Positions 34,024-63,651 of a stretch of 64,000 bases of DNA are shown in pieces (position 1 is the stretch's first letter; each line of letters opens with the position of its first letter). The translations under genes and the position numbers were made by a program. This stretch comes from Planctomycetota bacterium. GTDB lineage: Bacteria; Planctomycetota; UBA1135; GCA-002686595. The stretch spans positions 1 to 64,000 of the forward strand of contig JAJDET010000308.1 in the NCBI GenBank assembly GCA_029259655.1, in the 5' to 3' direction. Below the pieces are notes generated by a model, which was given only the letters and a program-made list of their open reading frames with translations, had not been told where the DNA came from and searched no databases.

Positions 34024-34953
34024 TCATCCCCGACCGTGCGGCGCCTCGAGGTCGAGCTCGGGCCCGACCGGGACGACCCGCGTCGGGTTGATCGACGCGT
34101 GCGTCACGTAGTAGTGCCGCTTGATGTGGTCGAGGTCGACCGTCTCGCCGAAGCCCTCGGTCTGGTAGAGGTCGCGCAGGTAGCCGGAGAGGTGGGGGTA
34201 GTCGGCGATGCGGCGCAGGTTGCACTTGAAGTGGCCGACGTACACGGCGTCGAAGCGGACGAGCGTCGTGAACAACCGGACGTCCGCCTCCGTCAGGCGT
34301 GCTCCCACCAGGTAGCGCCGGTTCGCCAAGCGCTCGTCCAGCTCGTCCAGCATCCCGAACAGCCCGACCACGGCCTGCTCGTACGACTCCTGCGAGGTCG
34401 CGAAGCCGGCGCGGTAGACGCCGTTGTTCACGTGCTCGTAGACGCGTCCGTTGATCTCGTCGATCTCGCCGCGTAGCTCCGCGGGGTAGAGCTCCATGTC
34501 GTTCCGCGCGTGTTCGCCGAACTCCTGGTCGAGCATGCGCAAGAGCTCGGACGACTCGTTGTTGACGATGCTCGCGGTCTCGCGGTCCCACAGCACCGGA
34601 ACGGTGACGCGGCCCTCGAACGACGGATCCGTCGCCGCGTACGCCTCGGACAGAAACGCGAAGCCGTTCACCGGATCCTCGTTCTGGCCCGGTCCCTCCC
34701 GGAAGGCCCAACCGCGCTCGTCGCGAATGGGGTCGACCACGCTCATCCCGATCGCGTGCTCGAGGCCCTTCAGACGGCGGGCGATGATCGTCCGGTGCGC
34801 CCAGGGGCAGGCGAGCGAGACGTAGAGATGGTAGCGGTCGGCCGCGGCGGGGAGCTCGGCGTCGCCGGCGCAAACCCACCGGCGAAAGGCGCTCCGCTGG
34901 CGGACGAACGCTCCCTTGGCGCTCTGCTCGAGAGGGAACTGGGACTGGGACAC
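34024..34953 (-). CDS. Glutathionyl-hydroquinone reductase (YqjG/Xi-class GST)
   Basis: The 309-aa product is chosen from GTG 34953, because GAGGAA lies six bases upstream and family similarity starts there. It has the Xi-class glutathione transferase pattern. The catalytic Cys sits in LYVSLACPWAHRTII (near 51), followed by GWAFREGPGQNEDPVNGFAF, VPVLWDRETASIVNNESSEL, and the C-terminal helical domain RLTEADVRLFTTLVRFDAVYVGHFKCN. Such enzymes reduce glutathionyl-hydroquinones to hydroquinones. A likely terminator separates it from the upstream NAD operon. Confidence 0.93.
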   Translation of the reverse strand: MSQSQFPLEQSAKGAFVRQRSAFRRWVCAGDAELPAAADRYHLYVSLACPWAHRTIIARRLKGLEHAIGMSVVDPIRDERGWAFREGPGQNEDPVNGFAFLSEAYAATDPSFEGRVTVPVLWDRETASIVNNESSELLRMLDQEFGEHARNDMELYPAELRGEIDEINGRVYEHVNNGVYRAGFATSQESYEQAVVGLFGMLDELDERLANRRYLVGARLTEADVRLFTTLVRFDAVYVGHFKCNLRRIADYPHLSGYLRDLYQTEGFGETVDLDHIKRHYYVTHASINPTRVVPVGPELDLEAPHGRG

Positions 34954-35014: not shown

Positions 35015-35033
35015 GCGGACCGGCCCGGTCCGC
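35015..35033 (-). terminator. Hairpin after the NAD/triad operon
   Basis: Read on the minus strand, GCGGACC, a five-base loop and GGTCCGC form a 7-bp stem followed by TATCTTGCT. It lies 18 bases beyond the stop of the NUDIX regulator gene and before the reductase gene. It probably marks the end of the NAD-salvage operon. Confidence 0.55.
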
Positions 35034-35051: not shown

Positions 35052-35735
35052 TCAGGACCCTCGCTGCACGAACCGGTACACCGTCGCCGGACGCCTGCCC
35101 GTCGCGCGCTTCCCCGGCGCCTGCACGATCACTCCGTCCGTCAACATGCGCCGGAAGCGCCGGCGGAAGTTCGCCGGGTCGTAGGCCGTGCCCTTGATCG
35201 CCTCGTAGACACCCCGCAGCTCCGAGACCGTGAAGGTCTCCGGTACGAGCTCGAACCCGATCGGGGCGTAGTCGATCTTGCCGCGAATGCGCTCCAGGCC
35301 GCAGTTCAGGATCTGCTCGTGGTCGAAGGCGAGCCCGAGCTCCGGGACCTCTTTTGCGACCGAGAACCACCGGGCGTCGGCCGCGTCCGTCGCGGCGCGC
35401 GTGAGCGGGATCAGCTCCGGACGCACCAACGCGTAGTACGCCACCGTCACCACGCGCGTGCGCGGGTCGCGGTCGGGCCGGCCGAAGGTGTAGAGCTGTT
35501 CCAGGTAGACGCGGTCGCGCGGGAGGCCCGTCTCCTCCTCCAGCTCGCGGTGCGCCGCGTCCTCCAGGTCTTCACCGCCCTGCTCCTCGACCCGCACGAA
35601 GCCGCCCGGTAACGCCCAGCTCCCGCGAAACGGTTCGAGCTTGCGGCGAACGAGAAGCAACTTCAGATCCGAGTCGAGGATCGTGAACACCACGAGATCG
35701 ACCGTGAGCGCGGGGCGGGGATACTCGTCCGTCAT
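35052..35735 (-). CDS. NrtR-like NUDIX domain / winged-helix regulator
   Basis: This 227-aa protein starts at ATG 35735, overlapping the kinase stop by four bases. The NUDIX domain begins PALTVDLVVFTILDSDLKLL. Its box reads GGFVRVEE..DLEDAAHRELEEETGL, with a four-residue insertion (EQGG) but intact REL-EEE. The C-terminus (about 165-227: FTVSELRGVYEAIKGTAYDP.. FRRRFRRMLTDGVI) is the winged helix of NrtR-type proteins, which bind ADP-ribose and repress NAD-metabolism genes. Its place at the end of an operon with three NAD genes strongly supports that role. The intact catalytic residues leave open a hydrolase activity as well. Confidence 0.85.
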   Translation of the reverse strand: MTDEYPRPALTVDLVVFTILDSDLKLLLVRRKLEPFRGSWALPGGFVRVEEQGGEDLEDAAHRELEEETGLPRDRVYLEQLYTFGRPDRDPRTRVVTVAYYALVRPELIPLTRAATDAADARWFSVAKEVPELGLAFDHEQILNCGLERIRGKIDYAPIGFELVPETFTVSELRGVYEAIKGTAYDPANFRRRFRRMLTDGVIVQAPGKRATGRRPATVYRFVQRGS

Positions 35736-37420
35736 GGGGCCAGGGATAGAGCGAACAGGCGCTCGCCCCGGGAGAGTAAGACCTGGCGCCCGCGCTTGCC
35801 CAGCCGGCCGCCGGTCATTCCATCGGCGAACACGTGACGCACGTCGCCCTTGCCGGGACGGGCGCGGAAGGCCTCGAGTCCGTCCTCGACCCGGGCCACC
35901 GCGACCCCGCTCGACAGGCACGTCAGATCGAGCTCCGTGGGCCCGACGTCGCGGCTCACGCGCACGTCGTAGGTTCCCGCGGCCTCGTCACGTCGCACGA
36001 TCCAGCGGTCGTATCCCTTCTTCCCCGCGACCAGCAACGCCGCCACCGATCCGTCCGCCCGAGCGTCCACGATGCGACGCCCGTCGAGATCGGGCACGTG
36101 CAGCGACGGACAGGTGCCGGGCGCGGTGAGCCAGTGGAGCCACGTCGCGCCCAGGAGGTTCTGGACGGCGACGCCGGGGAAGAGGTGGGTAGCGTGCTCG
36201 AGCACCGAGGCGATGACCCGGCTCGACACGACCACGCCGCCGCGCGTCTCGAGGAAGTCGAGCTCCACCAGCTTGTCGCGCGTCCGCACGACGACCCGAC
36301 TGCCGGCGACGACGACCTCGTCGACCCGCAGCGAGAGCGGGATCGGCTGGTCGCGGAGTGCATCCAGCAGCTCTCCCTCGGCTCCGACCAGGATCGGCCG
36401 CTGCGTCTTCGGCAGGAGGATCAGGTCGCGCGCCCCGCGCGTACCCAGGGAGAGCGGGAGGCGGCGTCCGTCGACGAACAGCGCGTCCTGCGTCAGGACG
36501 ACCAGCAAACCCTCTTCTCCCGCGACTGCGACGATCGGCGTCGGGAACGAAGCCAGCTCGCGCGCCGAGAGCGCGCCGGTCGGCGCCGTCTTCACGCGCG
36601 GGACCACGGTCTTGCCGGCGACCTTCGGCGCGGGGCGCAGGTTGGTGGGCGGAGCGTCGCGATGGCCCTCCTGGAAGACCGCGCGGAACCAGTCGAGGAG
36701 CTGCACGGGGATCGTGTCGAACGGCGCCGCCGCCGCGGGGACGCGCACGCTCGGATCGAGGACGGACAGGTCGAGGCGCATCCGGTCGGCCAGCGCGCGC
36801 ACCTTCGGATGCCGCCCCTTGAAGGGGTGCAGGCCCACGAGCAACTGGAAGGCGAGGATCGCGAACGCGTACCAGTCGCTCCCCACGCACGGAGCCGGCG
36901 CGTGCGGATCGCGCACGCTCTCGAGCACGGCGCGCGCCGGGTGGCGCGGCGTCTGCCAGTTGTCGACGTCCACGAACCAGAGCTCGCGGAAGCGACGATC
37001 CGTCAGGAGGTTCAGCTCGTGCAGATCGACGATCAGGACGCCTGCGGCGTGGGCGGCCTCGACGCCTTCGCGAAGAGCGCCGATCAGTCGGAGCACGGCG
37101 TCCTGCCGGATACCGTTGCGCTCCTTGAAGCCGCGCGGGATCAGCTGCGCCAGCGGGATCGCGTCGCGCACGAACCGCATCGTGAAACCGACAGGCCTAC
37201 CGCTCTTCCTGTCGTGCAGGAGAGCGAGCGGTCGGATCACCCGCGGCGAGCGGATCGCGGCCAGCTCGCGCAGTTTCTCCTCGGAGAGCGTCGCTGCGGG
37301 ATCGGAGTAGATCTTGTACGCCGTATCGCCCTTGGCGTAGACCGCGCCTTGCCCGCCGGCCGCGACGAAGTCCGCCTGGTGAAGCACGACCCGGCTGCCG
37401 TCGTCGAGATGCAGCTTCAC
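35732..37420 (-). CDS. Divergent protein kinase of a vWA-PP2C-kinase triad
   Basis: The 562-aa protein starts at GTG 37420, overlapping the PP2C stop (GTGA). The kinase-like domain has GGQGAVY (22-28), ATP Lys K36 in AYKIYSD, and a changed catalytic loop VDLHELN (D132, N137) in place of HRDxxxxN. D151 in FVDVDN stands in for DFG. All key residues are therefore present in a divergent form. Residues about 295-562 form a repetitive beta region (LVVLTQDALFVDGRRLPL, VVVRTRDKLVELDFLE, HLFPGVAVQNLLGATWLHWL) that may be a propeller. Together with vWA and PP2C genes it matches the TerY-P triad layout, in which kinase and phosphatase act on a vWA partner. Confidence 0.8.
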   Translation of the reverse strand: MKLHLDDGSRVVLHQADFVAAGGQGAVYAKGDTAYKIYSDPAATLSEEKLRELAAIRSPRVIRPLALLHDRKSGRPVGFTMRFVRDAIPLAQLIPRGFKERNGIRQDAVLRLIGALREGVEAAHAAGVLIVDLHELNLLTDRRFRELWFVDVDNWQTPRHPARAVLESVRDPHAPAPCVGSDWYAFAILAFQLLVGLHPFKGRHPKVRALADRMRLDLSVLDPSVRVPAAAAPFDTIPVQLLDWFRAVFQEGHRDAPPTNLRPAPKVAGKTVVPRVKTAPTGALSARELASFPTPIVAVAGEEGLLVVLTQDALFVDGRRLPLSLGTRGARDLILLPKTQRPILVGAEGELLDALRDQPIPLSLRVDEVVVAGSRVVVRTRDKLVELDFLETRGGVVVSSRVIASVLEHATHLFPGVAVQNLLGATWLHWLTAPGTCPSLHVPDLDGRRIVDARADGSVAALLVAGKKGYDRWIVRRDEAAGTYDVRVSRDVGPTELDLTCLSSGVAVARVEDGLEAFRARPGKGDVRHVFADGMTGGRLGKRGRQVLLSRGERLFALSLAP

Positions 37421-38220
37421 GCCGCGTCCCCCAGCCACAGGGCGGCCACGCCCAGGTCGTCGGTGTGCTTCCAGCCGCGCTCGACACAGGTCCGGCCGAG
37501 GAAACGGCTGCAGCGGCGCTGCACGAACGAGCCCCGCGTCGCGCGCACTTCGATCAGCTCCGCCAGCACGGCTTCGACCGCGATGGGACGCGTGCCGTCG
37601 GTGAACGAATCGGCGCCGTCGGTGACGAGCAAGATCAGGTCGTGTTCGGCGGGCGAGAACGCGAAGCGTTCGGGTGAGAAGCCGCGGCGGTGGTGGGTGC
37701 GGAGCACGCCCCCGTCGCACTGCACGACGGTCCGCGCACCGCGCGTCTGCGCCAGGTAGGCCGCTCGCCGGCGGCGGTCGAGGCCGTAGCTGGGATAGGC
37801 CGGCGCTCCGCCGGGGAAGCGCACGGTCCAGGAATCGACGCCGCCGCCGCGCCTGCGCGCCGCAACGCTCCCGTCGCCCGCGACCAGGACGTGCACGCGC
37901 TCTCCGTCGAACGTCGCGGTCATGAGCGTCGAGTCGAGCACCTCGGAGGCTTCCGGCTGCCGGAGCGCGTGTCCGAGCACGGCGCTCGCCATGCCCGCGG
38001 CCACGCGTACGATGCGGTCGCCGTCGAGCCGAGCACCGTGCTCGAGCAGCTCGCGCTCGGCAGCGCGCGCCAGGAGCCGCGGGCCGAGGTCGCCGTCATA
38101 GGAGGACGAGCAGCCGTCGACCACGATCGCGTGGGGCCGCCCGTCCACGGCGCCCGCCAGGGCGTAGTCCTGGCAAGCGCCGCGTCCGTCCTTCCCCGCG
38201 AACCAGGCGTCGGCGTGCAT
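37417..38220 (-). CDS. PP2C-family protein phosphatase
   Basis: This 267-aa protein has a PPM/PP2C core. Metal-binding motifs are ACQDYALAG (near 15), VVDGCSSSYDGDLG (near 35), VTDGADSFTDG (near 198) and HTDDLGVAALW (near 255). It should dephosphorylate Ser/Thr residues using two divalent metals. The gene lies 11 bp after the vWA gene and overlaps the kinase gene by four bases. That implies equal synthesis of phosphatase and kinase and a shared substrate, probably the vWA protein or an NAD enzyme encoded upstream. Confidence 0.87.
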   Translation of the reverse strand: MHADAWFAGKDGRGACQDYALAGAVDGRPHAIVVDGCSSSYDGDLGPRLLARAAERELLEHGARLDGDRIVRVAAGMASAVLGHALRQPEASEVLDSTLMTATFDGERVHVLVAGDGSVAARRRGGGVDSWTVRFPGGAPAYPSYGLDRRRRAAYLAQTRGARTVVQCDGGVLRTHHRRGFSPERFAFSPAEHDLILLVTDGADSFTDGTRPIAVEAVLAELIEVRATRGSFVQRRCSRFLGRTCVERGWKHTDDLGVAALWLGDAA

Positions 38221-38231
38221 CGCTTCCCGTT

Positions 38232-38963
38232 TCAGAAAGTGATGGCACCCGAGGCGCCGGTCCCGAGCGCCTGCGACTGGGCCGAGACGCTCTTCGAAAC
38301 GAAGCGGGCGAGCCCGGCCAGGGTGGCCTCGTCGGCCTTCTCGAGCTCGACATAGGCGTCGAAGCCCGCAGCGCGCTCGACATCCTCGAGCGCACTCCCG
38401 GCCCCGACGTTCACGCCGACGAGGATCGTGGTCAAGGACTCCAGCTTCTCCTCGACGCGGGCGCGTTCGATCGCCGCTCGGACGTCCTTTGCCGTGAGCT
38501 GCGAGGCGTTGTCGAGACCGTCGGTCACGACGAACACGATCGCGTTGCAGTCGAAGTCGCTCTCGAAGAGGTCCGTGCCGTAGCGCGACACCGCTTCGAT
38601 CCCGTTGTGCGCGGCATCGAAGAGCGCCGTGTTGGAGCCGACCTCGAGCTTGCCCGCGTAGCTCGCGGGCACGCACTCGGCGAGCTGCCGGAAACCGTGT
38701 ACTTCGCGCACGTCCTGCGCGAACGTCGTGTAGCGGAGCATCAGGTTGTCCGCGCGCGGCGAGCGCCGGCACGAGCGCACGATCTCCTGGACACAGGCCT
38801 CGATCTCGTCCTGGAAAGACGTGATGCTGGGGCTGGCGTCGGCCACCAGGCCGACCAGCGTGTACTCGGTCGCACCGAGGTCCTCGATGCGAGTGGCCGA
38901 GAACCCGTAGGGCGAGCCTTCGATGCGTCTCTTCTCGAGCTGGGCTTCGTCGAACAAGGGCAT
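38232..38963 (-). CDS. von Willebrand factor A (TerY-like) protein
   Basis: The 243-aa product starts at ATG 38963 after AAGGAG. The vWA fold carries a complete MIDAS: DASPS (in VGLVADASPSITSF, near 45), Thr in VGSNTALFDAA, and VVTDGLDNAS. It should bind a divalent cation and mediate protein-protein contacts. TerY proteins of tellurite-associated operons are vWA proteins encoded next to PP2C and kinase genes, as here, but no TerC/TerD/TerZ gene is in the window. No leader, so cytoplasmic. It links the NAD genes (14 bp upstream) with the phospho-switch genes downstream. Confidence 0.87.
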   Translation of the reverse strand: MPLFDEAQLEKRRIEGSPYGFSATRIEDLGATEYTLVGLVADASPSITSFQDEIEACVQEIVRSCRRSPRADNLMLRYTTFAQDVREVHGFRQLAECVPASYAGKLEVGSNTALFDAAHNGIEAVSRYGTDLFESDFDCNAIVFVVTDGLDNASQLTAKDVRAAIERARVEEKLESLTTILVGVNVGAGSALEDVERAAGFDAYVELEKADEATLAGLARFVSKSVSAQSQALGTGASGAITF

Positions 38964-38977
38964 GGCGTTCTCCTTTT

Positions 38978-39787
38978 CTAGGCGGCGCCCGCGAAGGCCG
39001 TGGTCGTGGACGTGCGCATGCCGGCGGCCTTCAGGTCGCGCACGAACTCGTCCGCCTGCGCCTCGAAGCCCGTCACGGGAGAGGAGGCGTCGGACAGGAG
39101 CACGAGCTTCTCGACGTACTTCGGATCCGCGAACTGGTGCGCGACGTCTCGCGCCGTGTTCGCGAGGCAGTGCGAGAGGGCCTCGCCGGCGAGCAGCACG
39201 ACGTCGGCCTCCTCGAGCGTGCGCACGAGTCCCGTGTTCACCTGCGTGGTCGGGTCCTCGGCGTCGGGCACCTCGGCCTGGACGGCGGAGAAGTGCTCGG
39301 TCCAGGGGTTGCTCCCCTTGGTGACGAACTCGGCCATCGCGAAGCGGTCCTCCCACTCGTGGATCGCGCCGGCGAGCGCGGGCCAGACGTTGTGGCCGTC
39401 GTCGCCGATCAGGCAGTGATAGGGCCAGATGACGTGCGGATAGCGACCGTCGGCCTCGAGCTTGTCCAGGTACGCCTGGCTGCGCTTCAGCGCCGACGGC
39501 TTGCGTGTCGTCCACGTGCCGTCGCGAACGTCCGACGCGCCGATCACGGTGAACGGAGCGGGCTCGTGGCCGTCCGCGTCGCGCCACCAGATCGGGTGGC
39601 TGATGTCGACCTTGCGGTGGCTGTCCAGCGTCACGTGGATGTCGGTCAGCCGATCGCGCAGGCGCATCACCATCGCGGCGAGCCGGTCCATGTCGGCCGC
39701 CGCGCCGGGGACGGAGAGCGAGCCCTCCGCGTGGCAAAAGTCGTTCTGCGGGTCGATGACGAGCAGGTGGATTCGTTCCTTCTTCAT
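38978..39787 (-). CDS. Nicotinamidase / isochorismatase-family hydrolase
   Basis: This 269-aa protein shows the nicotinamidase catalytic set: D in LLVIDPQNDFC (near 11), Lys in EFVTKGSNPWTEH (near 146) and the nucleophilic Cys in LAGEALSHCLANTARD (near 200). Metal ligands are in LDSHRKVDISHP. It converts nicotinamide to nicotinate and ammonia, the first salvage step. It is longer than E. coli PncA (213 aa), with inserted loops. ATG 39787 follows AAGGAG. It lies 30 bp after the NAD synthetase gene and 14 bp before the vWA gene. Confidence 0.88.
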   Translation of the reverse strand: MKKERIHLLVIDPQNDFCHAEGSLSVPGAAADMDRLAAMVMRLRDRLTDIHVTLDSHRKVDISHPIWWRDADGHEPAPFTVIGASDVRDGTWTTRKPSALKRSQAYLDKLEADGRYPHVIWPYHCLIGDDGHNVWPALAGAIHEWEDRFAMAEFVTKGSNPWTEHFSAVQAEVPDAEDPTTQVNTGLVRTLEEADVVLLAGEALSHCLANTARDVAHQFADPKYVEKLVLLSDASSPVTGFEAQADEFVRDLKAAGMRTSTTTAFAGAA

Positions 39788-39817
39788 ACCGTGTCTCCTT
39801 GTGTCGTCCGGTGCCGC

Positions 39818-40876
39818 CTAGGCCGCACCGCTGGTCGGCGGGTCGATCGAGGCGTTCGCCGCGCACCCGCCGGGGCGCGGTAGCTCGTCCGTCAAGAGGC
39901 CGCCCCGCACGAGGTCGGAGCGCACTCCGAGCGTGGGAACGGCCGGGTTGTGCTTGTGTCGCGTCACGCGCTCCATGTGTCGCGCGGCGCTGATCAGGGG
40001 GCCGACGAGCGCGGGCTCGATGCCGCGAAAGGCCGTGCTCTCGCGCGCGCTCCCGATGAGCTCGCGTTCCACCGCCCCGTCGTCGAACAGGACTCCGCCG
40101 AGCTCGTCGTCGAGGCGGCTCGTGCGCTCGATCAGGCCCGCGCGAACGTAGACGCCGGTGGCGCGATCGATCGCTCCGTAGAAGGTGTGCTCTCCGGGAT
40201 CGACCCCGAGGACCGACGCGATCTCCGTCTCGTCGTTGTGCTCCTCGCCCACGCCCCACAGGTCCGGAGTGGGCTGCGCGCGCAGGATCGAGGCCGGTAC
40301 GCCGAGGGCGCGACCGAGCTGGTAGACCTCGGCCTTCGACAGCATGGCGAGCGGATTCGTGTCGACCTCGCCGTCGCCGCCCTTCTGGTAGAAGCGCAGC
40401 CAGCGGTCCTCGCACTCGTTGCCGGTGCCGTGCCGGATCCCACCGCCGGCGAAGCGGTTGAACGCACGCCCGACCGGCGCGCGCAGCGTGGAGCGCACGG
40501 AGCCGAGGACGGTCGGGTCCTCGAGCACCCGCCGCTCGATCTCGGCGGCGGGGTGACCCGCGACTGCAAGGCTCTCGCGGACGGCGTCCGTCAGGCGGTG
40601 GAAGTAGTCGGTCAGATCGATGACCGCGAGCCGCACGCCGAACGCGTCGGCGACCTCGTGCGCGCGCTCGAGCGCTGAGCTGTCGCTGTCGATGCACGAG
40701 TGGACCGCGATGATCTCATCGGGGCCGAGCGCTCGCGCCAGCAGGCCGAGCACGACGGCGGAGTCGATGCCTCCGGAGACGTCGAGCTGCGCGCGGGCGA
40801 TGCCGCTCTCCTCGTGCAGCCGCCGCAGTGCGGCGACGCGATCCTCGATGAGTGCGTTGGTGTCGATGACGGGCAT
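39818..40876 (-). CDS. nadE: NAD+ synthetase, ammonia-dependent type
   Basis: The 352-aa enzyme amidates nicotinate adenine dinucleotide to NAD+ using ATP. The PP-loop is SGGIDSAVVLGLL (near 34-46). Substrate regions include GTGNECEDRWLRFYQKGGDG and VDTNPLAMLSKAEVYQLGRAL, with PTPDLW further on. There is no glutaminase (nitrilase) domain, so it uses free ammonia, which the neighbouring nicotinamidase releases. A C-terminal extension of about 80 residues is longer than in E. coli NadE. It lies 24 bp after the nicotinate phosphoribosyltransferase gene. Confidence 0.9.
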   Translation of the reverse strand: MPVIDTNALIEDRVAALRRLHEESGIARAQLDVSGGIDSAVVLGLLARALGPDEIIAVHSCIDSDSSALERAHEVADAFGVRLAVIDLTDYFHRLTDAVRESLAVAGHPAAEIERRVLEDPTVLGSVRSTLRAPVGRAFNRFAGGGIRHGTGNECEDRWLRFYQKGGDGEVDTNPLAMLSKAEVYQLGRALGVPASILRAQPTPDLWGVGEEHNDETEIASVLGVDPGEHTFYGAIDRATGVYVRAGLIERTSRLDDELGGVLFDDGAVERELIGSARESTAFRGIEPALVGPLISAARHMERVTRHKHNPAVPTLGVRSDLVRGGLLTDELPRPGGCAANASIDPPTSGAA

Positions 40877-40900
40877 GCCGGTCTTCCTTTCTCGAGTTTT

Positions 40901-42373
40901 TCAGGCGACGGCGCGGGCGATGCTGGCGAGCCGCTCGCTGCGCAATCGAGTCAACAGGGCGCGTGTCGCGAGCGTCGGCTCCACACGCGCGTCACCGCCG
41001 ACCGGAGGGACGCGCTCGATCACCTCGCGCGGTGCGTTCTCGTCCAGGAGCACCGTGCCGCGCGGGGCGCGCTCGCCGAGCTGTCCGACGAGCCCGAAGG
41101 CGTGCTCCGTCCCCGGCCGATCGGGGCGGAAGACGACCGGGTGACCCGGCAGGCTCGCCTTGCCCGGGTCGTCCGAGAACTTCATGGTGGGACGACCTCC
41201 GGTGACACCGAGCTTGTAGACCGCGCCGATCTCGCCGCGCGTCGGCAGCGGCACGTGCGGCGCGACGAGGCTCTGACCGACGAGGTAACGCAGGCGCGCG
41301 GCCGGCCACTCCAGGCGGCGCCGCAGTCCCTCGAACGCGGCGATGCGTTTCGCGTCGAGGCCTCCGCCGAGGACGATACCCGCGCAGGTCTCGTCGAGAC
41401 CGCTCGAGCGCAGCTCGCGAATCGTCGCGCGGAGATCGCTCGCCATCGTGGCCTCGCAGTCGAGGCGGACCGAGGCGCGGCGCTCAGGAGCTTCCCGTAG
41501 CGCGCGGAGTGCCGACGGCAACCCGCTCTCACGCGTCGAGTACGTGTCGAGCAGGTAGGTCACCTCGCCCGCGAGCGTGTCACGCGCGGCGGCGAAGGCT
41601 GCGTGGTCGCTGCCCCAGCGCTGTGCGTGCTCGTGTCCCGTGGTCCCGCCGGCGTTCAGCTCGAGCTCGCGCGCCCCCTCAAGGTGCGTCGTGGCGACGA
41701 GCCCGGCGTCCTGGGCCGCGGTGAGTGCGAGCTCGTGCTGCTCGAGCGTCGTCGCCGCGCGCAGGCCGGCTTCCAGCACGCGCGCCGGATCGCCGGCGGC
41801 GGCGAGCAGTGCGCGCGTTCTTGCGTGGACCGCGGCCATGTAGCCGTCCGGATCGACCGCGATGGGGAAGGGCGGTGCAACGCCCGCCGCGTCGATGGCC
41901 TCCAGTACGAGCTCGCGCTCGCTGTCGCAGGTGACCGAGCCGACGAGCTCGCCCAGCCGTTCGGGGGCGAGCATCGCCGCCGAGGCGACCTGGATCGGGA
42001 AGCGCAGCGCGACGACCGTCGCCTCGATCGTCGAGACGAGCGCGGAGGGTCCGGTGACCGTGAGGATCGGCTCGCCGGCGAGGAACCAGGAGCCCTTCGG
42101 GAGCGCGCGTACCTCGACTTCGCCGCCGAGCGCCTCGCGCTGGGCCTCGTCCACTCGCAGCCCCTGACTCGCGAGCCACTGGAGGTCGTTCGACTCCACG
42201 CGCGGCAAGAGCTCCCGCACCCGTGCTTCCAGGTCGAACGGAACCCAGAACGGTCCGCCCTTCCGGAAGCTGAAGACGAACGTCTCCCGCCGCAGCGGGA
42301 ACCCCGCCCGGGCCATGACCGGCTTGTACTTGTCCGTCGAGAGGAGCGACGCGTGCCGTATAAGAGTCTTCAT
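40901..42373 (-). CDS. pncB: Nicotinate phosphoribosyltransferase
   Basis: The 490-aa product converts nicotinate and PRPP to nicotinate mononucleotide. It begins MKTLIRHASLLSTDKYKPVM, matching the family start, with FSFRKGGPFWVPFDLE after it. It also has PLPTRGEIGAVYKLG and LGGGLDAKR, typical of the C-terminal half. ATG 42373 is preferred over GTG 42409, because a -10 element ends six bases before the ATG. That implies a leaderless mRNA starting at or near the A of ATG. It is the first gene of the NAD/triad operon. NadD, needed between this enzyme and NadE, is not in the window. Confidence 0.9.
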   Translation of the reverse strand: MKTLIRHASLLSTDKYKPVMARAGFPLRRETFVFSFRKGGPFWVPFDLEARVRELLPRVESNDLQWLASQGLRVDEAQREALGGEVEVRALPKGSWFLAGEPILTVTGPSALVSTIEATVVALRFPIQVASAAMLAPERLGELVGSVTCDSERELVLEAIDAAGVAPPFPIAVDPDGYMAAVHARTRALLAAAGDPARVLEAGLRAATTLEQHELALTAAQDAGLVATTHLEGARELELNAGGTTGHEHAQRWGSDHAAFAAARDTLAGEVTYLLDTYSTRESGLPSALRALREAPERRASVRLDCEATMASDLRATIRELRSSGLDETCAGIVLGGGLDAKRIAAFEGLRRRLEWPAARLRYLVGQSLVAPHVPLPTRGEIGAVYKLGVTGGRPTMKFSDDPGKASLPGHPVVFRPDRPGTEHAFGLVGQLGERAPRGTVLLDENAPREVIERVPPVGGDARVEPTLATRALLTRLRSERLASIARAVA

Positions 42374-42408
42374 GACCCTAATATCGGTCAGAATGACTCT
42401 TTTGTCCA
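42361..42408 (-). promoter_or_regulatory. Leaderless promoter with two abutting 21-bp dyads
   Basis: On the minus strand TGGACA (42408-42403), a 17-bp spacer and GATATT (42385-42380) form a promoter whose start would fall at the ATG (42373). Two dyads abut here, written on the plus strand: TAAGAGTC-N5-GACCCTAA at 42361-42381 and TATCGGTC-N5-GACTCTTT at 42382-42402. Both have a GTC-N5-GAC core and are exactly 21 bp apart. One lies over the spacer, the other over -10 and the start, ideal for repression. The NrtR-like product of the operon is the obvious candidate ligand. Confidence 0.7.
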
Positions 42409-61008: not shown

Positions 61009-63651
61009 ATGACGCTCGCTCCCGGCCAGTCGCTCTCCTTCTACGAGATCCTCGGTCCGCTCGGGGCCGGAGGGATGGGGGAGGTGTATCGCGCGCGCGA
61101 CACGCGGCTGGAGCGGATCGTCGCGCTGAAGGTCCTGCCGGAGGAGATGGCGGCGGACTCCGAGCGGCTGGCGCGCTTCGAGCGGGAGGCGAAGGTGCTC
61201 GCGGCGCTCCAGCACCCGAACATCGTCACGGTGCACTCGGTCGAGGAGGTGGACGGCGTGCACTTCCTGACGATGGAGCTCGTGGAGGGCTCGACGCTCG
61301 GGACCGCGATCGAGCCGGGCGGCATGCCGCTCGCGAAGTTCTATCCGCTCGCCGCCGCGATCGCCGAGGCCGTGCACGTCGCGCACAAGAAGGGGATCAC
61401 GCACCGCGACCTGAAGCCGGACAACGTGATCCTGGATGCTTCGGGCCGGCCGACGGTGCTCGACTTCGGGCTCGCGAAGCTCGAGAGGAAGGTCGGCGAC
61501 GACGGGAAGCTCGACTCGTCCCTGACCGATGCGGGGCGCGTGATGGGGACCTTGCCGTACATGGCTCCGGAGGCGCTGAAGGGCGAGGAGGTCGACAGCC
61601 GCGCGGACGTGTTCTCGCTGGGCGTCGTCCTGTTCGAGGCGCTGACGGGCAGGCACCCGTTCCCGGGCGAGGACACGGGCGAGCGGATGTCCGCGATCCT
61701 GCGCGACGCGCCGCCGCGCGCGGACGAGCTGCGCCGCGACGTCCCGCCCGGACTCGCGCGTCTGCTCGAGCGCTCCCTCGCGAAGGACCCGGACCGGCGA
61801 CTGCAGACCGCGCTCGACCTGCGCAACGAGCTCGAGGAGCTCGCGGCGGCAGGTGACACGACCGCACCCGCGGAGGCCCGTGCAGGCGCGGGCCGGCGTC
61901 TCGTGCTCGGGATGGGAGCCGTCGCGCTCCTCGTCACCGCCGCGATCTGGTTCGCGCGTCTCTCGAATCGGGAGGAGCCGGTGCGCGCCGCCTTCTCGTC
62001 CCGGCCGCTCACGTTCTCCCAGCTCTTCGACCGCGATCCGACCTGGTCGCCGGGCGGCGAGTGGATCGCCTTCTCGCGCCAGAAGTCCGCCAGCATGGGG
62101 CTCTGGCTCAAGGACGTCGCGACCGGAGACGAGATCGAGCGTCGCGACGGCCCGGGCGACGAGGTCTGCCCGCGCTGGTCGCCGGACGGCCAGTACATCG
62201 CGATCCTCTCGACCGACCTCCCCGGAACGCCGGTCGTCCTGGTGCGGCCCCGCGCCACCGGGAGCGGCGGGGAGCGCGTCCTGATCGACACGCAGATGGG
62301 CGTGCTCGACATCATCACCCAGTGGGGGGCGATGGGCGTTCGCCCGTGGGCGGAGGACGGGTCGTCGCTGCTGGTGTCACGCCTGACCGATACCGGTCAG
62401 GCCGTCGTCTTTCGCGTCGGTCGGGACGACGACCTGCTGGAGCCGCTGACCTCTCCACCGATCGGCAGCGACGACTTCTACGCGTCCTACTCGTTCGACC
62501 AGGAGCAGATCCTCTTCGTCCGGAGGACTCAGGGCAGGGGCGCGTTGATGCTCATGCCCGCGGAGGGCGGGGACCCCGAGGTGCTCCTGGACGACGGGCG
62601 CCTGATCGGGCTGGCCTCCTGGCGTCCCGACGGCCAGAACATCGTCTACATCACACCGACCGGTCTGTGGGAGATCGACGTCGACACGCGCACGTCGAGG
62701 CGTCTCCTCTTCGCGAGCGACCAGTCGAGCCATCACGGCGAGCTCTCCGTCAGTGCCGGGGGTCGCATCGCCTATTCGGTTGGAGGACACGCCACCACCC
62801 TGACGGTGCTGGACCTCGAGTCGGGGAGCAGGAGAGCCGTCACCGACCACGACGGAACCAACTTCGGCTGTCGCTACTCGCCGAACGGAGAGATCGCCTA
62901 CCACTCCGACCGTACGGGCGACTCCGAGATCTGGGTGATCGCACCCGACGGCGAAGAGCGGCGCATCACTCACGATACGGGAGCGGACACCAGCCCGGAC
63001 TGGTCGCCCGACGGTGAGCGGCTGGTCTTCCGCTCCAACCGGGACGGTGCGTTCAAGATCTACGTATCGGACAGCAACGGAGGCGACTGCCACCTCCTGT
63101 GGAACCGCGAGCTCAGCGGCGCGTGGATGGGGCTCCTGTGGTCGCCGCGGTCAGCGGCGGGCGAGCTGATCGGCTGCCTCGTCGCCGAGGAGGGCGGCGA
63201 TGCGCTCTGGGGCGTGAGGCCCGACGGTACGGGCGCACGACGCTTGCACGCGGGAGTCGTGGGGTTCGACTGGTATCTCGACAGCACGCGTGTCCTGGCC
63301 ACGCTGGACGACGGCCGCGGGGAGAAGCTCGTCGCCGTCCACCTCGAGACGGGAGAGGTGAAGGAGATCTGGACGGGTCCGCACGACGAGATCGACGTCG
63401 CTCCCGACGGCCGCAGCGTGATGTTCGCCATGGGCCTCGGGCACGCCGCGATGGGCCGCGCGATCCTGGAGCTCGTTCCCCCGGAGAGCCCCGACGGTCT
63501 CCCCACGGCTCGCGGAGAGCCGGAGTACGTCGTGCGCGCCGACGGGCCCTGGCACACGCATCACGGTGCCTGGGCGGCGGACTCGAAGAGCATCGTGTAC
63601 GTCCACGACGACGACCGCTCCAACATCTACGAGCTCATCGCGGCGGACTGA
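61009..63651 (+). CDS. Ser/Thr protein kinase with TolB-like propeller
   Basis: This 880-aa protein has a kinase domain (about 10-265) with GAGGMGEVYRARD, VALKVLPEEM, catalytic loop HRDLKPDNVIL, DFGLAKLE and YMAPEALKGEE. One membrane helix (near 302-320, LVLGMGAVALLVTAAIWF) leads to a periplasmic beta-propeller with PD40 repeats (TWSPGGEWIAFS, PRWSPDGQYIAIL, PDWSPDGERLVFRSNRDG). The N-terminal 70 residues match the kinase at 11549 almost throughout, showing a paralogous pair. It should transmit an envelope signal into Ser/Thr phosphorylation. No SD motif is seen at ATG 61009. Confidence 0.93.
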   Translation: MTLAPGQSLSFYEILGPLGAGGMGEVYRARDTRLERIVALKVLPEEMAADSERLARFEREAKVLAALQHPNIVTVHSVEEVDGVHFLTMELVEGSTLGTAIEPGGMPLAKFYPLAAAIAEAVHVAHKKGITHRDLKPDNVILDASGRPTVLDFGLAKLERKVGDDGKLDSSLTDAGRVMGTLPYMAPEALKGEEVDSRADVFSLGVVLFEALTGRHPFPGEDTGERMSAILRDAPPRADELRRDVPPGLARLLERSLAKDPDRRLQTALDLRNELEELAAAGDTTAPAEARAGAGRRLVLGMGAVALLVTAAIWFARLSNREEPVRAAFSSRPLTFSQLFDRDPTWSPGGEWIAFSRQKSASMGLWLKDVATGDEIERRDGPGDEVCPRWSPDGQYIAILSTDLPGTPVVLVRPRATGSGGERVLIDTQMGVLDIITQWGAMGVRPWAEDGSSLLVSRLTDTGQAVVFRVGRDDDLLEPLTSPPIGSDDFYASYSFDQEQILFVRRTQGRGALMLMPAEGGDPEVLLDDGRLIGLASWRPDGQNIVYITPTGLWEIDVDTRTSRRLLFASDQSSHHGELSVSAGGRIAYSVGGHATTLTVLDLESGSRRAVTDHDGTNFGCRYSPNGEIAYHSDRTGDSEIWVIAPDGEERRITHDTGADTSPDWSPDGERLVFRSNRDGAFKIYVSDSNGGDCHLLWNRELSGAWMGLLWSPRSAAGELIGCLVAEEGGDALWGVRPDGTGARRLHAGVVGFDWYLDSTRVLATLDDGRGEKLVAVHLETGEVKEIWTGPHDEIDVAPDGRSVMFAMGLGHAAMGRAILELVPPESPDGLPTARGEPEYVVRADGPWHTHHGAWAADSKSIVYVHDDDRSNIYELIAAD

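Follow-up and report, generated by a model that had tools for sequence, protein, structure and literature searches.

Why would an operon for the salvage of NAD carry a protein kinase, a protein phosphatase and a vWA protein? The question is raised by seven minus-strand genes in the 35052-42408 region of a 64,000-nucleotide stretch (the window) of a contig from a Planctomycetota bacterium. We think it rather probable that these genes form a module in which the salvage of nicotinamide to NAD is gated by phosphorylation, and that modules of this type circulate among large phages and bacterial chromosomes.

The genes run in the order pncB-nadE-pncA-vWA-PP2C-kinase-NrtR, with intergenic spacings of 24, 30, 14 and 11 bp followed by two 4-bp overlaps, an arrangement that agrees with a sequence-only reading of the same DNA. 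The start codon is ATG in pncB (position 42373), nadE (40876), pncA (39787), vWA (38963), PP2C (38220) and NrtR (35735), and GTG in the kinase gene (37420). The sequence-only reading had extended pncB to 42408; the gene is there, but 42408 marks an upstream GTG and the ATG start lies at 42373. It had also placed a terminator after the last gene. The terminator scan returned none, and the GC-rich hairpin past the NrtR gene (35015-35033, minus strand) has no clear T-run. A glutathione-transferase-like gene (34024-34953, minus strand) begins about 100 bp past the NrtR gene; it is present in 6 of the 60 genomes sampled from the same family, and its neighbours are not conserved in the four that were examined.

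The vWA, PP2C and kinase genes occupy positions 35732-38963. The vWA protein (38232-38963, 243 amino acids) has no Pfam match by itself, and the VWA family is matched by 24 of its 68 relatives. Its AlphaFold model (pLDDT 88) matches vWA folds in the PDB, and profile comparison relates it to E. coli YegL (E 5e-7). The MIDAS is intact: D42, S46, T112 and D148 are present in all 68 relatives, and the position of S44 is either S or T. The phosphatase (37417-38220, 267 amino acids) matches PF13672 (PP2C_2) with an E value of 5e-10, and its metal sites are kept, D18, D35, D116, D201, D254 and D255 being invariant in 37 of 37 relatives. The Ser/Thr-type kinase (35732-37420, 562 amino acids) gives a weak Pkinase match when taken alone, and 65 of its 73 relatives match that family. 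Residues D132, N137 and D151 are found in all 73 and K36 in 72 of them. The kinase also has a homologue in E. coli, YegI (hhalign, 238 columns, E 1.3e-19). Thus, the active-site residues that had been picked out in the window alone vary little or not at all among relatives.

The kinase has two parts, a kinase domain (residues 1 to about 260) and a C-terminal all-beta domain (284-562) in which the AlphaFold model (pLDDT 92, pTM 0.91) places about 28 strands. From this strand count we read the C-terminal domain as a probable 7-bladed propeller; the PDB matches listed for the model cover the kinase domain only. A full-length match is the kinase of Myoviridae sp. ctNQV2 (E 8e-31). A relative in genome G044, which belongs to the same phylum as the window, has a CxC...CxxC stretch past the kinase domain (locus L024). 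Another Ser/Thr kinase, which carries WD40-like propeller repeats, is encoded at 61009-63651 of the window; it has a similar two-part design, and its position is unrelated to that of the operon.

The combination of a vWA protein, a PP2C phosphatase and a Ser/Thr kinase is that of the TerY-P triad, for which a metal-dependent phosphorylation switch has been proposed (Anantharaman et al. 2012, as cited in PMC11090510 and PMC4978471). The earlier suggestion that the window has a triad of this kind holds up, since the three protein types are encoded together in the window and in most viral relatives, the MIDAS and the catalytic residues of kinase and phosphatase are kept, and both YegI and YegL are homologues. 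There are also differences. The C-terminal part of known TerY-P kinases is a zinc ribbon or, in defence variants, an OB-fold (PMC11090510), whereas that of the window kinase consists of the beta strands described above and has no zinc ribbon. TerY-P triads sit with tellurite or restriction systems (PMC11090510), whereas the recurrent neighbours here are genes for NAD or ADP-ribose metabolism and RNA repair, not ter, restriction or DNA-processing genes, and the partner is a nicotinamidase and NAD salvage. The E. coli YegL-PphC-YegI set likewise consists of three proteins encoded on one chromosome, with a homologous kinase and vWA protein, but no NAD genes adjoin it, and for the kinase the homology is confined to the kinase domain.

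The link between the triad and NAD genes was examined in viral contigs. A scan with the window vWA sequence alone gave no match and alignments were required; alignment-based scans yielded loci L027-L148 and L230-L294, of which about 104 distinct loci remained once duplicates were removed. Among these, pncA is present in 99, vWA in 94, the kinase in 92 and PP2C in 91. With vWA as the anchor, each of the 41 convincing loci has a pncA gene within 10 kb (L148, where the match was weak and partial, was excluded); with the kinase as the anchor, 64 of the 65 newly fetched loci do, the exception beginning at a contig end. The pncA and vWA genes have the same orientation in all 91 cases, and the gap between them has a median of 39 bp. 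These counts bear out the sequence-only claim that the linkage between the triad and NAD genes is not random, which thus survived the refuting condition set for it in that reading.

The gene order varies. It is pncA-vWA-PP2C-kinase in 79 viral loci, PP2C-kinase-pncA-vWA in three and something else in three more, one of which (L032) may only reflect an over-long PP2C reading frame. The group stays together throughout; that the order changes while the four genes remain grouped is better explained by functional coupling than by an ancestral order that became frozen. The distances of the four core proteins are also correlated (r 0.63-0.79, against a permuted maximum of 0.22), although such correlated divergence would also be expected from simple co-inheritance.

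Other genes of NAD or ADP-ribose metabolism are less constant. Near the 104 viral loci are nadE (30), pncB (25), NrtR (21), a nadD-like gene (12), NADAR (9), NAD-dependent DNA ligase (8) and KptA (6); one representative of each neighbour family was verified with Pfam. The near-obligate partner of the triad is therefore the nicotinamidase, and pncB, nadE and NrtR are optional. The full seven-gene set of the window recurs on seven large viral contigs, at L032, L038, L039, L091, L129, L133 and L235, with a nadD-like gene as well at L038, L133 and L235. On some phage contigs the route from nicotinamide to NAD is complete, with a gene for each of its four steps; for example, L053 has pncA, vWA, pncB, nadE, PP2C, a nadD-like gene and the kinase, together with a terminase, on one contig. 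A second copy of the pncA family follows the kinase gene at L104 (15460-16380). The NADAR-domain genes, whose products belong to ADP-ribose processing, are at L040, L058, L070, L081, L104, L254, L257, L272 and L280, and genes for KptA, RtcB, RNA ligase and Thg1 are also found near the module in some viral loci. NAD salvage and RNA repair thus seem to share one region in large phages.

Because pncB and nadE are near only about one quarter to one third of the viral loci, the triad may serve PncA alone or something else. One might suppose that it works as a switch of the TerY-P kind in stress or defence generally, with other targets, for example nucleic-acid processes, and that its only tie to the NAD genes is a common phage accessory region. 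TerY-P triads do accompany restriction systems, TerY-P-like modules serve by themselves in anti-phage defence (PMC11090510), the kinase has weak matches to PADLOC kinase models, and the RNA-repair genes just mentioned would suit such a switch. However, the most common non-NAD neighbour, a metallophosphoesterase, is present in only 15 of the 104 loci, compared with 91-99 for the four core genes, and the bond to pncA is kept across reordered loci and on bacterial chromosomes. We consider a general switch of this kind unlikely, though it is the most serious competitor of a gated salvage module.

The next issue is whether the enzymes are what their names imply. The nicotinamidase (38978-39787, 269 amino acids) belongs to a divergent branch: it scores just over the cut-off of the isochorismatase-fold family PF00857 and obtains 31 bits with the PncA model NF008623, for which the cut-off is 174. 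One could argue from this, and from the NADAR and macro-domain genes near some loci, that the PncA-like hydrolase acts on another amide or on a signalling nucleotide, and that the module handles an immune signal instead of salvaging NAD. Yet the pncA profile finds the solved nicotinamidase 2h0r with an E value of 4e-18, and the top solved relatives are nicotinamidases. The Asp-Lys-Cys triad and the metal-binding Asp and His residues of nicotinamidases are present in the window protein, D12, K157, C207, D55 and H57 being invariant in 36 of 36 relatives and H64 present in 35. Moreover, neighbouring pncB, nadE, nadD-like and NrtR genes complete the pathway, and we regard a different substrate as improbable.

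The phosphoribosyltransferase (40901-42373, 490 amino acids) is also from a divergent branch. It scores 116 bits with TIGR01513 (NAPRTase), which is below the trusted cut-off, and it is 33-46% identical to the viral copies; a profile built from nine pncB orthologues finds solved nicotinate phosphoribosyltransferases (E 3e-26). Profile matches therefore support the predicted identities of both the nicotinamidase and the NAPRTase. The NAD synthetase (39818-40876, 352 amino acids) matches PF02540 (NAD_synthase, E 5e-21), has an SGGIDSA loop at residue 34 and lacks a glutaminase domain. The same genome has a second, canonical nadE on another contig (C92) and nadD-type nucleotidyltransferases elsewhere, so the operon adds to NAD synthesis and is not its sole source.

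The last gene (35052-35735) encodes a protein with a NUDIX domain (PF00293) and an NrtR winged helix (PF21906, NrtR_WHD), both over their cut-offs, in line with the regulator that had been predicted; with the NtrR model, for which the cut-off is 400 bits, it obtains 165. Its NUDIX catalytic motif, REx2EExG, is intact, and so this NrtR-type regulator may also hydrolyse ADP-ribose. An inverted repeat, TGACC-N8-GGTCA (42373-42390, minus strand), ends on the pncB start codon and is a candidate site for the regulator. A sigma70-like match, TGGACA-17-GATATT (42380-42408, minus strand), is a candidate promoter only, one such match being found where 0.2 were expected. Other loci have upstream repeats with different sequences, and so no operator motif common to the loci was found or can be considered established. 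In Betaproteobacteria and others, NrtR-regulated NAD salvage loci also have NrtR adjoining the same pncA family; a vWA, PP2C or kinase gene of the module type was not found at those loci. Taken together, the sequence evidence supports the prediction of an NAD-salvage operon with a triad and an NrtR-type regulator.

Large phage or phage-like contigs account for most of the sampled module copies. Two metagenomic phage records, LR756511.1 (595 kb) and LR745208.1 (485 kb), encode vWA proteins that are 48-50% identical to that of the window, and a copy on Variovorax megaplasmids is 44% identical. The same pncA is present in all of these neighbourhoods, with PP2C and the kinase as well on the phages. 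On Variovorax sp. SRS16 plasmid 2 (L018, 6551-12797), NrtR, NUDIX, nicotinamidase and vWA genes are clustered with genes for a nucleoside 2-deoxyribosyltransferase, an NAD kinase and macro-domain proteins; the PP2C and kinase of the triad were not found within 10 kb, which counts against the reading as a gated module. PF03237 and a three-sequence profile found few terminases in the module records, PF03237 recognising those of LR756511.1, LR756500.1 and the L053 and L087 records. The phrog_2 model matched 15 of 29 records, including LR745208.1 and six of the seven with the full gene set, but this model is permissive, with matches in 11 of 14 control genomes too, and a low score is therefore no proof of a terminase. 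We take as credible the strong phrog_2 matches, which have E values of 1e-17 or better and lie in reading frames of some 640-820 codons.

The module is also found on the chromosomes of Acidobacteria, Bacteroidota, candidate-phyla bacteria and members of the window's own phylum. Three of these copies (L149, L150 and L228) have ordinary bacterial neighbours. In the small genome of a Parcubacteria member (candidate phylum; L167, 5810-17938, on a 412-kb contig) the module lies between nadA and a glutamine-dependent NAD synthetase gene, which makes for a compact NAD locus. Within the window's phylum, the vWA protein was matched in 3 of 294 genomes. The pncA-linked triad is present in two other genomes of the phylum, G044, where the order is PP2C-kinase-pncA-vWA-NrtR, and G277; a third genome, G051 (L334), represents a more distant branch with a triad and no pncA in the stretch examined, which also counts against that reading.

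This rarity, and the vWA and PncA trees, in which the window falls among viral sequences and a few copies from bacterial MAGs (Acidobacteria L149, deltaproteobacterial L150 and L151, and Nannocystaceae L153), might suggest that the operon is a recent and functionless phage remnant. The state of the locus tells against this: all seven frames and their active sites are intact, the base composition is like that of the genome, and other phyla have separate chromosomal copies. The flanking genes are bacterial (an ABC transporter, a histidine kinase, TetR, an alpha/beta hydrolase and an FG-GAP-repeat protein). We also considered whether the window itself is a prophage and rejected this, the tested flanking proteins being ordinary bacterial ones. 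A functionless remnant is thus very improbable. As for two unrelated operons lying side by side by chance, the sampled genomes of the same family do lack the module, but the junction between nicotinamidase and vWA genes recurs in dozens of distinct viral contigs, in G044 and G277 and in several bacterial phyla, and on these neighbourhood counts we reject the idea.

Phages that rebuild NAD are known. Examples are NARP1 (PMC12774641), NARP2, RyDEP (PMC13232231) and the salvage pathways of KVP40 and jumbo phages; a passage of PMC13282480 also cites jumbo-phage NAD synthesis. We propose that the phage copies of the module resemble NARP1, NARP2, KVP40 and the jumbo phages in rebuilding NAD from the products of NAD cleavage (PMC12774641, PMC13232231, PMC11984713). 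The route differs from that of NARP1, which uses ADP-ribose and nicotinamide by way of Adps and Namat, whereas here nicotinamide would be deamidated (PncA-PncB-NadD-NadE) and a kinase, a phosphatase and a vWA protein are added. Adps and Namat were not recognised among the frequent neighbour families examined. The consulted parts of PMC12774641 and PMC13232231 do not mention a nicotinamidase, nor those of PMC13232231 a kinase. Passages of surveys of viral NAD and ADP-ribose systems and of jumbo phages (PMC9503650, PMC7824862) describe NAPRTase, NadM and NadR and do not mention a nicotinamidase with the triad. The terms nicotin-, NAD, kinase and phosphatase are all absent from the main text of the paper on huge phages (PMC7162821). 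The salvage of NAD by phages is already known, as are TerY-P triads, and it is their combination, especially the control part, that is apparently undescribed. We did not find it in the literature; an earlier mention is possible in Li et al. 2024 (Microbiome 12:268), which reportedly deals with the NAD systems of gut jumbo phages.

How might a phosphorylation-gated salvage module work? NAD-cleaving enzymes release nicotinamide, which PncA converts to nicotinate; PncB then makes nicotinate mononucleotide, NadD makes NaAD and NadE makes NAD. The NadD step would be supplied by a gene near the module in some phages and presumably by a gene elsewhere in the window genome. The kinase, by means of its all-beta C-terminal part, would together with the PP2C phosphatase set the phosphorylation state of the MIDAS-containing vWA protein. 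This protein would then serve as an adaptor that engages PncA, and perhaps PncB and NadE, and so gates the first step, such that a fall in NAD, or a rise in nicotinamide or ADP-ribose, would turn salvage on. NrtR, where present, may provide a slower, transcriptional layer of control. Phages would likely use the module to rebuild NAD against NAD-depleting defences or to feed their own NAD-consuming enzymes, and the bacterium of the window may use it for NAD homeostasis under stress or infection.

More tentatively, the module may represent a distinct class of phage NAD restoration, present in many large phages and in scattered bacteria, in which nicotinamidase salvage is both restrained and triggered by a dedicated vWA/PP2C/propeller-kinase switch that senses NAD loss, or ADP-ribose or metal signals, during defence. 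If this is true, we know of no earlier phage metabolic pathway that has been shown to be gated by a Ser/Thr phospho-switch of its own. The depletion of NAD is a central bacterial defence, and the consulted passages on phage counter-systems describe no on/off control. A triad that travels with a nicotinamidase in dozens of large phages suggests that the repair of NAD is regulated during infection. We know of few substrates for vWA-PP2C-kinase triads, and PncA would be a concrete candidate target for them.
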